NCBI RefSeq assembly: GCF_000024185.1
Contig: NC_013790.1
Coordinates: 2,803,613 to 2,867,612 of the forward strand
Direction of reading: 5' to 3'
Origin: Methanobrevibacter ruminantium M1
Lineage (GTDB): Archaea > Methanobacteriota > Methanobacteria > Methanobacteriales > Methanobacteriaceae
DNA: 64,000 bases
Shown here piece after piece: positions 31,676-38,741 of this stretch. Within the stretch, counting starts at the first letter, position 1. Each line of letters starts with the position of its first letter. Position numbers and translations under genes: made by a program. The notes below the pieces were generated by a model. It searched no databases. It was not told where the DNA came from and worked only from the letters and a program-made list of their open reading frames with translations.

Positions 31676-33462
31676 GGGTGTCCGCCAAAATAAAATTTTG
31701 ACAACACCAGTTAAAATATGGTTGCTCTGACCTCTAATTTCTCTTGGACAGAAATTTTCTCACAGAAATCAACTATATCTTCTTTATCATTTTTTATTTC
31801 TTGTTCTAAGTTAAATAATCGTATTAAATTATAAGCCACGGCATCTAATAGTATTCTTTCTTCTGTCTTTGTTTTTCCTATCACTACTTCGCTTTCTATA
31901 TGGAATTGTTCCTTTAAAATGCCAAAAGGTCCTTCGACAGATGACCTTTTTGCATATTCTTCCATATATTCCTCTGTTTCCATTTTTTCCCACATTGCTT
32001 TCTTTAAACTTCCGCCATATTCGGTGATTGTTCTGTGGGTTTGGGTGGATGAAAGGCAGTTTTCACGGCAATTGCAAGCCTTACAAGCACCATAATTGGA
32101 ATATAAACGCTTAATTTTGTCTGGCTTGTCCAAATCATCATTTTTTTCAGTGTATTTGTTGAAAAAATACATTATTTGGCCTTCTGGACATTCAAATGCA
32201 TCAATTTCAGGGAAGTATTTGAAGTGATCCTTGTGATATGGGTTCTTGTTCAATCTTCCGATTTTTTCCTTGGATTGCTTTCTATCTGGTATAACTCCAT
32301 TTATTTGATTATCTGCAAGATATGATAAGCTTTCTTCATTCAGATAGATTGTATCTGCCAATACGAATCTTGGTATTACGTTTGTGTTGTTTATTGCCTT
32401 ATCTACGATTTTTGGCAATTGGTAATGGTCTGTAGGGGCTTGTACGACGTTTATTGCACAAATCATTTTTGTATCGTAATCGACTGCAGATTGGATATTA
32501 TAGCTTATTTGTGAGTTTCCTTTCTTGCTTTTCATCCAACGTGCTTCTATGTCGGTTACTGGCACTGATTTTTGACCAGACAGTGTGAATTGTGTTTTAA
32601 TGTCATCCAAGAGGTATAATTTTTCTTGGTTGCTGATTTTTTTATTTTCAAGAATCTCTCGGGCCGGTTTATGGAGTTTATCTAGCTCTTCCTGACTTAC
32701 ACGGCCTCCTTCGAAGTAACGGGTTAATATTTCAGTTTCTTTTTCTGTGATCACTTTATTTTTTGAATTGTATGCTTTTTTGATGGTTCCGTCAATGGAA
32801 ACTTCGTTGAAATCAGTGTAATCCACATCTGAAGCTTTTTTTAAGGTTGCTTTTAACAATTCATTGTAATATTTGCCGTATTTTTCTCTGTATCGTTGTA
32901 ATGATCGTTCTGAAGGACAAATTCCATTTCCAACGAATTTATATACGTCATGATATTTTACCATGTCTGCTAAGAATCTCATACTATCAATATGCTCGAT
33001 TTTAGCATAAATAAGCAATTTTAACATCTCTTTCACCGGAAAACTGTCACGCCCTTTCTTCTTTTTATTTTCTTTGATTCCTAAAAGAGGATAATATTCG
33101 TCAATGAAATCCCCAACAAAACGAGAAATATGATCCTCTGGAATGTTAAAATCTAAAGTTCTAATGCCTAATTTTATTTGTTTTTCATCCGGAATTCTTT
33201 TAACCCTAAATAACCCCAAAATATTAACCCTTTGTTGATATTATTTATGTTTAAAGTAGTATATAAAGTTTACTATAATATTATTGCTTTATTTCATATT
33301 TAAAGAATAATTAACAAGTAAAAAATTTTTTCAAGGTGCAAGCACCAAAATTAAAAGAAAACAATAGAAAAAACATCGAATTTTAAAAAAATAACTAAAA
33401 TAAATAACTTAAAAAATTGAAAATTTTAAACTTTTTTAAAAAAATAGCTTTTTGGCGGACCC
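31676..33462 (-). mobile_element. IS1182-like insertion sequence with terminal inverted repeats
   Basis: The left end reads GGGTGTCCGCCAAAA (31676-31690). The right end, reverse-complemented, reads GGGTCCGCCAAAA (33450-33462). They match in GGG and TCCGCCAAAA with a 2-nt difference in spacing. TCTATA flanks the element on both sides (31670-31675 and 33463-33468), a probable 6-bp target duplication. The 1,787-bp element carries one transposase gene on the minus strand. A 19-bp direct repeat (GAAATTCATTTATCTATAG) at 31658-31676 and 33492-33510 surrounds it and is not explained by the short duplication. Confidence 0.8.
31711..33219 (-). CDS. IS1182-family DDE transposase
   Basis: This 502-residue transposase has an N-terminal DUF772-type helical domain (FPVKEMLKLLIYAKIEH), then the catalytic domain. 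Candidate catalytic acids are Asp in EVSIDGTIKK, Asp in VLADTIYL and Glu in SSVEGPFGILKEQ. A cysteine-rich insert (CKACNCRENC) lies before the last acid, as in other IS1182 transposases. The protein looks full length, with no frameshift. It begins with TTG (33219), about 8 nt after an AGGG; there is no ATG nearby. The terminal repeats around it look usable, so the element may still be active. Confidence 0.88.
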   Translation of the reverse strand: MGLFRVKRIPDEKQIKLGIRTLDFNIPEDHISRFVGDFIDEYYPLLGIKENKKKKGRDSFPVKEMLKLLIYAKIEHIDSMRFLADMVKYHDVYKFVGNGICPSERSLQRYREKYGKYYNELLKATLKKASDVDYTDFNEVSIDGTIKKAYNSKNKVITEKETEILTRYFEGGRVSQEELDKLHKPAREILENKKISNQEKLYLLDDIKTQFTLSGQKSVPVTDIEARWMKSKKGNSQISYNIQSAVDYDTKMICAINVVQAPTDHYQLPKIVDKAINNTNVIPRFVLADTIYLNEESLSYLADNQINGVIPDRKQSKEKIGRLNKNPYHKDHFKYFPEIDAFECPEGQIMYFFNKYTEKNDDLDKPDKIKRLYSNYGACKACNCRENCLSSTQTHRTITEYGGSLKKAMWEKMETEEYMEEYAKRSSVEGPFGILKEQFHIESEVVIGKTKTEERILLDAVAYNLIRLFNLEQEIKNDKEDIVDFCEKISVQEKLEVRATIF

Positions 33463-35543: not shown

Positions 35544-36986
35544 CTAAATATCTAACTCTGAGATATTAATAGTAAAATTGTATCCAAAGTTAGGATGAGA
35601 ACATGCATGAATATGAATGTAATTAGCCAGAGTATTGTTAACACAGACACCATCCATATTGTTTAGGACTCCCCTTCCTCTTAAGACATCGAATACTAAA
35701 GAATCAGTTTTATCAATATTTAATTTAGTATAATGGAACTCATGAGCTCTGAATACATCGCCCTCATTTGATATGAGATTATCTTGATTGGCCCTTGCAA
35801 CAACATAATTAAGGCCTTGAACCTTATTAGTCATCTCAGATGAGTATGGAACTGCACCAACCATATCTAAGCCGTCAATTGATTTGGAAAGGTAGATCAA
35901 CCCTCCGCATTCACCATAGATAGGTCTATTTTCCTTATGGAATTTATTGATATCATTTAACATGGTTTTATTATCGGATAATTCTTTTTTAAACACTTCA
36001 GGATATCCTCCGCCGATGTATAATGCATCTACATCAGGAAGATGCTCATCCTTTAATGGACTGAATGGAACAATCTCTGCAGAATTTTCCTCCAATGATT
36101 CAAGGGTTTCCTTATAATAGAAAGTGAATATCTCGTCCTGGGCAACTCCAATCTTGACCTTATTCCTGTTGCCGGTTTTCCATAATTGCCCTGGCTTTGA
36201 GTCATTGGTAACCTCTAGGTCGATTGCTTCAGTATGCTCTCTATTAAAGTCATCTTCATGCTTTTCCATTGCAATATTCTTATTGTCCCTTGCAGTAGAC
36301 TTGGAGCTTGTCTTCATAATGTCCTTAAGTGCATCCAAATCTATATACTCCTCTGCAATCTCGCCCCAAAGATTAATGTTTCTTGTAATTCTTTCCTTCT
36401 CGAGAGCAGGGACAAGGCCGAGATGCCTTTCCTCTACAGTAATCTTATCGTCTCTTGGAATGCCTCCTATAACTGGAACATCAGCAAGCTTTTCTACAGA
36501 TTCTTTAGCCTTTTTATAGTGACGCTGACCTTTGACCTTATTTAAAATGACTCCTTCAATCCTGACATCTGGATCAAGTGCCTTAAATCCAAGAACAACT
36601 GCTGCAGCGCTTTTAACGAGACTTCTTGCATCCATCAAAAGCACAACAGGTGCGTCTATGGCCTTAGCAATTGAAGCAGTGTTTCCAACATCTCCTATAG
36701 GACTTATTCCTTCATAAAGACCTCTGACTCCTTCGATGATACCCATATTAGAATTGGATTTTTTTAAGGCTCTTTCAAATGAATTAATTATTTGAAAATC
36801 AGTCATGAAAAAGGAGTCTAGGTTACGGCTCACATTTCCTGTAGCTATTGTATGATAGGAAGGATCTATAAAATCAGGGCCAACCTTAAATGGTTGGACA
36901 TTTTCATCACTAAGCGCTTTCATAATTCCGGTTGAAATTGTAGTTTTTCCAACTGCGCTTCCAGTTCCAGCAAGTACGACTTTCAT
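35544..36986 (-). CDS. cfbB: Ni-sirohydrochlorin/cobyrinate a,c-diamide synthase (CfbB/CbiA family)
   Basis: This is an ATP- and glutamine-dependent amidase that converts the a- and c-acetate side chains of a tetrapyrrole to amides. In methanogens the CfbB form acts on Ni-sirohydrochlorin on the way to cofactor F430, the prosthetic group of methyl-coenzyme M reductase; CbiA acts in cobamide synthesis. The 480-residue protein has the P-loop [10 protein letters not shown] at 7-16, the substrate segment [16 protein letters not shown], and a C-terminal class I glutamine amidotransferase domain with nucleophile Cys in [10 protein letters not shown] near residue 350. A polar linker of about 50 residues (around residues 230-280) separates the halves. 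CfbB or CbiA cannot be separated with certainty by eye. No Shine-Dalgarno site precedes the ATG. Confidence 0.8.
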
Positions 36987-37276
36987 ATTATTAGATTATT
37001 TAAGATTTTATATAAAAGTTTCTTTTATATTGGGAGAAAATGATTAAAAAAGAATAGATAGGTAAAAATAAATAATACTTATTAGTTAAATCTGAAAAAA
37101 GAGTAATAATAAAGATTTTAACAATGATTGATATAAAAAAAATTATTATATGAAAGCAAAAAAGACTCTAAAGACGGTTTACTATATGAAATAAATAGTA
37201 AACCAAGTAAAAGTAAAAAATAAAAAATATAAAAAGTCAAAGTAAAAAAATACTTATCATATGCTCTCTAAATAGA
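36987..37276. promoter_or_regulatory. Upstream region of cfbB with shared inverted repeat
   Basis: GGTTTACTAT (37176-37185) and ATAGTAAACC (37195-37204) form a 10-bp inverted repeat with a 9-bp loop, related to the palindromes at 7009 and 13120. It lies 190 bp upstream of cfbB and 100 bp before the TATA box of the small transcript. No gene is seen. Confidence 0.45.
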
Positions 37277-37475
37277 TTTATAAGTATAAAAAACAAAATA
37301 AAATTGTAACAAGTTTAAAATAGATTTATCCTAAAACTTGTTATGGAGGTATGAATATATTTATAGAGATAGCGATACAAACCATTATATTTGTTTCTAT
37401 CCCATACCTAAATATAATTAGTTTGTATCTCAAAGCCAAGTTGAGAGTTTAACTCTCACTTGGTTTTGTATTTAT
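37277..37475 (+). ncRNA. Structured small transcript candidate, possibly encoding a 33-aa hydrophobic peptide
   Basis: A TATA-like stretch (TTTATAAGTATAAAAA, 37277-37292) would start a transcript near 37307-37315. Three hairpins follow. The first is TAACAAGTTT (37307) with AAACTTGTTA (37334). The second is GATACAAACCATTATATTT (37374) with AAATATAAT (37410) and GTTTGTATC (37421). The third is CCAAGTTGAGAGT with ACTCTCACTTGG (37436-37463), followed by TTTTGTATTT, a terminator. The loop of hairpin 2 contains CTATC and CATACCT, which can pair with upstream GATAG and AGGTATG in nested order, a possible pseudoknot or alternative fold. The region is clearly richer in G/C than its surroundings. An ATG at 37351 opens a 33-codon frame (MNIFIEIAIQ... 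to LYLKAKLRV, stop 37450) of membrane-peptide character, with GGAGGT directly against the ATG. Riboswitch, regulatory RNA or type I toxin mRNA are all possible. Confidence 0.5.
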
Positions 37476-37625
37476 CTTCTATAATATATAAATCATTCTC
37501 TAAAAATTAATAAATAGTTTAAAAAATAAAAAATAATATAAATAATTTTAGAAAAAAAGAAATGAGAACAATAAAGAAAATGAATGGAAATTAAATAAAA
37601 AAATAAATTATATTGGAGAACCACC

Positions 37626-38741
37626 ATGTCAACCTTAGAAAAGATGCAAGTATTAGCAGATTCAGCGCAATATGATTTGTGCGACTATGTTAGCCATAGC
37701 AAGAGCTCTCAAGTAAACCTGCCAGGAATATACCATGCAACAGGCCACAACGGATGCAAGATACCGCTCTTTAAAACACTGATGAGCAATAAGTGCAAAA
37801 ACGATTGCAAATACTGCATAAATCAAAGCAAACGTGATTTCACCCGTCTTGAACTTAGCCCGGAAGAGCTTGCAAAGGCATTTCTCCACTACTATAACAA
37901 CGGCTATGTAAACGGCCTATTCCTATCCTCTGGAATCTCTAATGAAATCGATGAAACAATGAACAAAACCATAGAGACCGCAAGGATATTGCGAAGGGAC
38001 TATGGATACCAGGACTACATCCATCTTAAGATAATTCCAGGCTCAAGCAAGGATTCAATAAAAAGGGCGATGAGCCTTGCAAATAGGGTAAGCCTAAACA
38101 TAGAAGCTGCAACAAAGGACGGCCTTAGCGAAATAACCTCAACAAAGGACTATAACAAGGACATCCTAAAGAGAATAGACTGGATGCATCAGATTGCAAA
38201 GAAAAATCCGGATTATGCAAAATCAGGCCACACCACTCAGCTCATTGTTGGAGCAAACGATGAAAGCGATTATGAAATACTAAAGCGAATGGACAGCCTA
38301 TATAGAAAGGCAGACCTTAGACGCAGCTATTTCAGCGCATTCTCCCCTGTAGAGGGAACAGACTTTGAAAAAAGAGAAGCATGCAGCAGTGATAGAACTG
38401 CACAGCTATACCATGCAGACGCCCTATTGAATGACTATAAGTTTAAGGTGAAGGAGCTTGTATTTGATGAAGATGATAAGTTGTTCCTTAATGAGGATCC
38501 TAAAATCCTAGCAGCTCGTGAAATGGATATCTTCCCAGTTGAAATAAATACAGCACCTTATAGGGAGCTTATAAGAGTCCCTGGAATCGGCCCGAAATCA
38601 GCAAGGAGAATAATGAGCATAAGAAAAAAGATGCCTTTTAAAAAACTGGAAGACCTTCAAAAATTAGGAGTCGTTATAAAAAGGGCAGAGCCTTATATTC
38701 AATTGGAAGGCGCTTATCAAAACTCTTTAGACAATTATTAA
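37626..38741 (+). CDS. Putative DNA modification/repair radical SAM protein (TIGR03916-like)
   Basis: This 371-residue protein has a radical SAM cluster motif CX3CX2C at Cys57, Cys61 and Cys64 (CKNDCKYC), preceded by the family N-terminus LADSAQYDLCD and GCKIPLFKTLMSN. The TIM-barrel-like core is followed by a C-terminal helix-hairpin-helix (VPGIGPKSARRIM, near residue 320), which normally binds DNA. This order fits the TIGR03916 family, predicted to act on DNA and usually paired with a uracil-DNA-glycosylase-like protein. No such partner is visible in this window. The ATG is preceded by GGAG at a normal distance. The structured small transcript ends about 150 bp upstream, so it is probably a separate unit. 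Confidence 0.85.
   Translation: MSTLEKMQVLADSAQYDLCDYVSHSKSSQVNLPGIYHATGHNGCKIPLFKTLMSNKCKNDCKYCINQSKRDFTRLELSPEELAKAFLHYYNNGYVNGLFLSSGISNEIDETMNKTIETARILRRDYGYQDYIHLKIIPGSSKDSIKRAMSLANRVSLNIEAATKDGLSEITSTKDYNKDILKRIDWMHQIAKKNPDYAKSGHTTQLIVGANDESDYEILKRMDSLYRKADLRRSYFSAFSPVEGTDFEKREACSSDRTAQLYHADALLNDYKFKVKELVFDEDDKLFLNEDPKILAAREMDIFPVEINTAPYRELIRVPGIGPKSARRIMSIRKKMPFKKLEDLQKLGVVIKRAEPYIQLEGAYQNSLDNY

Follow-up and report, generated by a model that had tools for sequence, protein, structure and literature searches.

Organization of the element in M. ruminantium M1

Positions 37251-37500 of the window, by which we mean the whole 64,000-nt stretch of Methanobrevibacter ruminantium M1 DNA that was analysed, appear from their sequence to form a structured transcription unit of about 175 nt. 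The unit is flanked by a cobB/cfbB-like gene and a radical SAM gene (Table 1). A TATA-like box, three hairpins, a T-rich 3' sequence, a GGAGGT motif and a 33-codon frame had been pointed out in an earlier sequence-only reading of this DNA, which took the locus for either a riboswitch or regulatory RNA, or a type I toxin-like mRNA. All of these features were present. Two further features, a TATA box on the reverse strand (TTTATATA) and an order-wide promoter box (WTASTTWTCAWATGCTCTY), were absent from that reading. The sense RNA is predicted to start at hairpin H1, while H3 has about 13 bp with one bulge and is directly followed by a T-rich tract. Elsewhere in the window, a 502-aa open reading frame on the minus strand (31711-33219) looked by eye like an IS1182-type transposase.

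Table 1. Features of the element and its flanking genes (window positions)
Feature	Position	Strand	Basis or remarks
Upstream promoter box TACTTATCATATGCTCTC	37251-37268	+	Motif counts in own genome, genus and order; common to replication/repair genes
Sense TATA box TTTATAAG	37277-37284	+	Sequence; 8 nt 3' of the upstream box
Hairpin H1, TAACAAGTTT/AAACTTGTTA, 10 bp	37307-37343 (37307-37316 with 37334-37343)	+	Fold
Shine-Dalgarno-like (SD) GGAGGT	37345-37350	+	Alignments; relatives have GGGGTGATG or GGAGGTGATG
Small open reading frame MNIFIEIAIQTIIFVSIPYLNIISLYLKAKLRV	37351-37452	+	33 codons from ATG 37351, or 31 from AUA 37357; TAA 37450-37452
Hairpin H2, GATACAAAC/GTTTGTATC	37374-37429 (37374-37382 with 37421-37429)	+	Within the coding region; plus inner A/T helix
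Hairpin H3, terminator-like, CCAAGT+GAGAGTT / AACTCTC+ACTTGG	37436-37463	+	Fold, covariation
T-rich 3' tail, can pair with the SD/start region (clasp)	37464-37482	+	9-pair helix, covariation; energy control mostly negative
Candidate antisense promoter, BRE-like GAGAATGA and TATA TTTATATA	37485-37500	-	Conservation across members
Predicted antisense RNA, from about the H3 base to near the T-rich stretch beyond H1	37290-37464	-	Inferred from promoter geometry
cobB/cfbB-like gene	35544-36986	-	Named by eye
Radical SAM gene	37626-38741	+	Best NCBIfam match TIGR03916, E 1.8e-92, below the curated cut-off

Homologues of the element

A DNA search revealed a second copy in the M1 genome (73% identity) and further copies in four more Methanobrevibacter genomes; the homologues found in this way had 70-73% identity. 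A covariance search, as proposed in the sequence-only reading, was made with models built from these homologues. It contributed or corroborated members in two further genomes, together with a third copy in genome G005. Relatives thus occurred in six other Methanobrevibacter genomes, and a hairpin equivalent to H1 was found in the members of this family (family 1). When the RNA model was searched against 139 genomes of the taxonomic family, just one weak match lay outside the genus. This match was judged spurious, since it apparently fell within coding sequence and the promoter box was absent. The viral contigs searched for the element gave no match, and a search of the window against Rfam returned no family at its gathering score.

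A second family was found in four genomes (L132-L135). It encodes an unrelated peptide (MSNIITMFLQFINTIFVVLMYFRK) in the same layout, and shares with family 1 the promoter box, the SD, the terminator-like hairpin and the reverse TATA box. A gene for a 53-60 aa protein with two transmembrane (TM) segments (MLIKEIINIVLLILAAMMICINYKLNKD...) lies 3' of the element at L013, L072, L125, L132, L133 and L135, and is absent from the window.

Structure of the predicted RNA

The fold of the window element reached -52.0 kcal/mol, whereas shuffled sequences averaged -26.6 (z = -7.39), and none of 200 shuffles was as low. Values of z in the homologues ranged from -3.3 to -9.6, and the minus strand of the element gave -6.6. 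From an alignment of eight related members, built without fitting to any structure, RNAalifold recovered H2, H3 and a closing helix, or clasp, that joins the 3' tail to the stretch following the SD. In these helices 89% of the alignment cells were paired, compared with 40-49% when the partners were slid and with 0 of 500 shuffles doing as well, and 18 of the 39 pairs had changed on both sides. H2 alone gave 94% against 31-43% for slid partners, with both-side changes in 8 of 15 pairs. Among members that precede the same radical SAM gene, compensatory change had replaced its GATACAAAC/GTTTGTATC stem with one of the GATGTACAAG/CTTGTACATC type.

The clasp comprises nine pairs, five of them changed on both sides, and was 84.7% paired (slid partners, 40-67%) across the eight related sequences that provide its covariation support. 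In most family 1 members its stability did not exceed that obtained with shuffled U-rich tails. Since a tail rich in U will pair with the G-rich start region in any case, it is covariation that argues for the clasp in these members. As to the suggested sequestration of the start of the frame, pairing between start and 3' tail covaries, but its energy is mostly no better than that of the shuffled tails. The particular pairing put forward for it, in which the loop of hairpin 2 would bury the start, is not conserved in relatives. The nested complementarity concerned (AGGTATG with CATACCT, and GATAG with CTATC) does occur in the window; it was lost in the homologues, and is for that reason probably incidental.

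A candidate promoter on the reverse strand

Beyond H3, TTTATATA was found on the reverse strand in all 14 members of both families, exactly in 13 and with one mismatch in the other. Its distance to the H3 base is 27-30 nt, and a BRE-like A-rich stretch precedes it. A single reverse TTTATATA is not rare in such A+T-rich flanks (shuffle P 0.02-0.11), so the weight of this feature rests on its constancy in diverged members. The box predicts an antisense RNA over the element. At the usual archaeal distance from TATA box to start, transcription would begin at H3 and cross the coding region, the SD and H1.

The upstream box and the replication and repair genes

In the M1 genome, 104 sites matched TACTTATCATATGCTCTC at three or fewer mismatches, while its reversed control matched 40. 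The box was found in all 19 genomes of the genus and in 64 of 80 genomes across the order; the reversed control scored 0 in both. A TATA box (up to two mismatches) lay 4-13 nt downstream of 25 of the 26 close M1 sites, where the null expectation was 27%. With at most one mismatch allowed, the frequency was 77%, compared with 5% at random places. Box-bearing promoters also served as our BRE/TATA yardstick, tRNA promoters being of little use, with many tRNA genes clustered.

The genes behind the box include those for Hef, RPA, Orc1/Cdc6, Hjc, the PolD large subunit, a UvrD-like protein, Hel308, NurA, a DUF763 protein, a ResIII-type helicase and a C5 DNA methylase. Members of the same families, named by eye, were found behind it in other genera (RPA, Orc1 and Top6B). 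There were also misfits, namely HemD-like, RhuM-family and ion-channel-like proteins and unknowns. By inspection, the set is visibly biased toward DNA replication and repair, and we infer that it responds to DNA damage. Our literature search found no description of a repair motif in Methanobacteriales or of the order-wide box WTASTTWTCAWATGCTCTY. The core of the box, TTTCAAATG, loosely resembles the Methanothermobacter origin repeat. An Orc1/Cdc6 gene carries box WTASTTWTCAWATGCTCTY, L037-L062 being the genome-wide instances in M1, and the paralogue that it encodes is a candidate regulator. In several genera, a single-TM protein of about 55-80 aa (...DLKSCVLIFLVMLLLLWGILTVAAGPNSNY) is also encoded behind the box (L045, L028, L138, L140, L144 and L157). 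The L028 protein had no Pfam match, and proteins of this kind are possibly damage-response membrane proteins.

A UV-inducible hexamer, 5'-A(N)TTTC-3', lies upstream of the BRE in the Orc1-2 regulon of Sulfolobus (PMC5817253, PMC9738581). Like the hexamer, the Methanobacteriales box stands just upstream of the BRE/TATA of a DNA damage and repair gene set. However, it is 17-18 nt long (TACTTTTCAAATGCTCT), any inducibility is putative, and the similarity is loose and confined to ACTTTTC.

Sharing a promoter with repair genes would also suit a non-toxic membrane peptide of the repair regulon, for instance a regulator of division or of a transporter, made from a structured mRNA with no functional antisense RNA. 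Conservation of the peptide (see below) is consistent with this, as is the occurrence across the order of another small single-TM protein behind the same box. However, strong RNA structure within the coding region, a fixed reverse TATA box and repeated copies at different sites all fit a type I system better, and we consider the non-toxic peptide unlikely, though worth bearing in mind.

Reading frame and peptide

From a CAA codon to the stop, the frame is exactly 25 codons long in nine distinct members, with no indels and no internal stops, and none of the remaining forward frames is open across all nine. Codon-position entropies were 0.81, 0.61 and 0.91, the second position being the least variable. 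The comparison of synonymous and nonsynonymous changes, also proposed in the sequence-only reading, gave pN below pS in close pairs, a result based on a small number of changes. The frame encodes a hydrophobic peptide that ends in a basic tail (...ISLYLKIKWR[DE]), and members keep the Q, the LY and the basic end; MNIAVWMIQTIMTLIMMISSIISLYLKIKWRE, from L011/L012, is an example. With 31-33 aa in the window, it falls under the 60-aa size of type I toxins, which are hydrophobic and mostly have a single TM stretch, and its hydrophobic frame is conserved in the nine members. The window peptide and its homologues had no relevant match in Pfam or NCBIfam at E <= 10, in searches whose power is limited by the short queries. 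We are confident that the element is a conserved structured mRNA encoding a small membrane peptide.

Candidate start codons differ among the members. Four of them (L001, L011, L012 and L034) have an in-frame AUG that overlaps the SD, and L002 has GTG. The doubt raised earlier about the close spacing of GGAGGT and ATG was justified, as the SD-adjacent AUG lies outside the conserved reading frame in 5 of 10 members (L009, L010, L013, L072 and L125). There the peptide would have to start at AUA, AUU or another codon. An in-frame AUA or AUU occurs 7-8 nt past the G-run in all family 1 members (37345-37360 in the window), an observation whose weight is limited by how common these codons are in A+T-rich sequence. 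The sequences thus make a non-AUG start (AUA/AUU) possible in family 1.

The displaced AUG in half of the members, together with the high structural conservation, would suit an untranslated regulatory RNA, or an overlapping RNA pair, in which conservation of the helices keeps a frame open incidentally. Against this stand the constraint on codon position 2 and the fact that just one forward frame is open and indel-free throughout the nine members. The second family also keeps its frame in three of four copies, L135 having an in-frame stop. An untranslated RNA seems to us decidedly improbable.

Genomic context

The neighbours of the members vary. In the window, as in G002, G016 and G005, the element is followed by a co-directional radical SAM gene, as would be expected of a riboswitch or attenuator of that gene. 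Other members lie beside PAC2-like, queG-like or 2'-5' RNA ligase-like genes (all named by eye). At L009-L012, however, the nearest downstream gene is convergent with the element, and another member precedes a different gene. These tail-to-tail homologues leave no common downstream gene to control, and so the riboswitch alternative of the sequence-only reading is unsupported. The terminator-like H3 and the reverse promoter that intervene, and the Rfam result, also speak against it, and we give it very little credence. A short mobile repeat, a MITE or otherwise, is just as hard to credit, since the near-palindromic sequence and copies at different sites are set against only two copies in the M1 genome, the divergence of the homologues, codon-like conservation and terminal inverted repeats that were not noticed.

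Interpretation and comparison with known systems

The type I toxin-like mRNA suggested earlier fits well. On the sequence evidence, the RNA structure with its covarying helices, the frame and the reverse TATA box of a candidate antisense promoter are conserved, the promoter box is shared, and the hydrophobic peptide has a basic end. The reading that we favour, with moderate confidence in its full mechanism, is a type I toxin-antitoxin-like module in an archaeon, under the control of a DNA replication and repair regulon and analogous to TisB. The promoter shared with replication and repair genes would yield a short mRNA that begins and ends in a hairpin and encodes a membrane peptide of 31-33 aa. 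The start region of this mRNA could be shut by pairing with its own 3' tail. On the opposite strand, a consensus promoter, presumably constitutive, would drive an antisense RNA across this region. Induction of the repair regulon would raise the sense RNA above the antisense RNA, allowing the peptide to be made. The peptide would probably depolarise the membrane, so that growth is slowed or stopped during repair. In such a module, both strands would be transcribed, and the peptide would be translated, toxic and induced by damage. A more specific proposal, in which the order-wide box TACTTTTCAAATGCTCT marks an archaeal SOS-like regulon that controls replication and repair genes together with the type I module, and in which a membrane peptide with a non-AUG (AUA/AUU) start halts growth while DNA is damaged, is put forward tentatively.

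Toxins of the TxpA/BsrG/Fst type have one hydrophobic stretch, a basic C-terminus and a cis antisense arrangement. The element resembles them in layout only, with no Pfam or NCBIfam match. In hok/Sok and aapA/IsoA, the mRNA is kept inert via a long-distance interaction between its 5' and 3' ends (PMC6733600). The element has in common with these systems a short hydrophobic peptide, a highly structured mRNA and an overlapping candidate antisense promoter (PMC6733600), and its start region is possibly paired with the 3' tail. It differs in its archaeal host and archaeal BRE/TATA promoters; there is no sequence relation, and the antisense RNA and mRNA processing are putative here. Another parallel is tisB/IstR-1, an SOS-controlled type I toxin system of E. 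coli (PMC8309996), which shares with the element, on our reading, a membrane peptide of 29-33 aa, a promoter of the DNA repair response and, as proposed here, a constitutive antisense RNA. IstR-1, however, is encoded in trans, the regulator in an archaeon is something other than LexA, and the toxicity of our peptide is putative.

According to a 2025 paper that adds a cyanobacterial case, type I systems had until then been known only in Proteobacteria, Firmicutes and Tenericutes (PMC12390103), and our literature search found no archaeal type I toxin-antitoxin system. If our reading is true, the element would be the first such system to be found beyond Bacteria, and TisB/IstR-1 would have an independent counterpart. 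Its confirmation would extend type I logic to a second domain of life, using archaeal promoters. The shared box, moreover, offers a testable hypothesis of an apparently undescribed repair regulon in Methanobacteriales, the order that includes the main rumen and gut methanogens.
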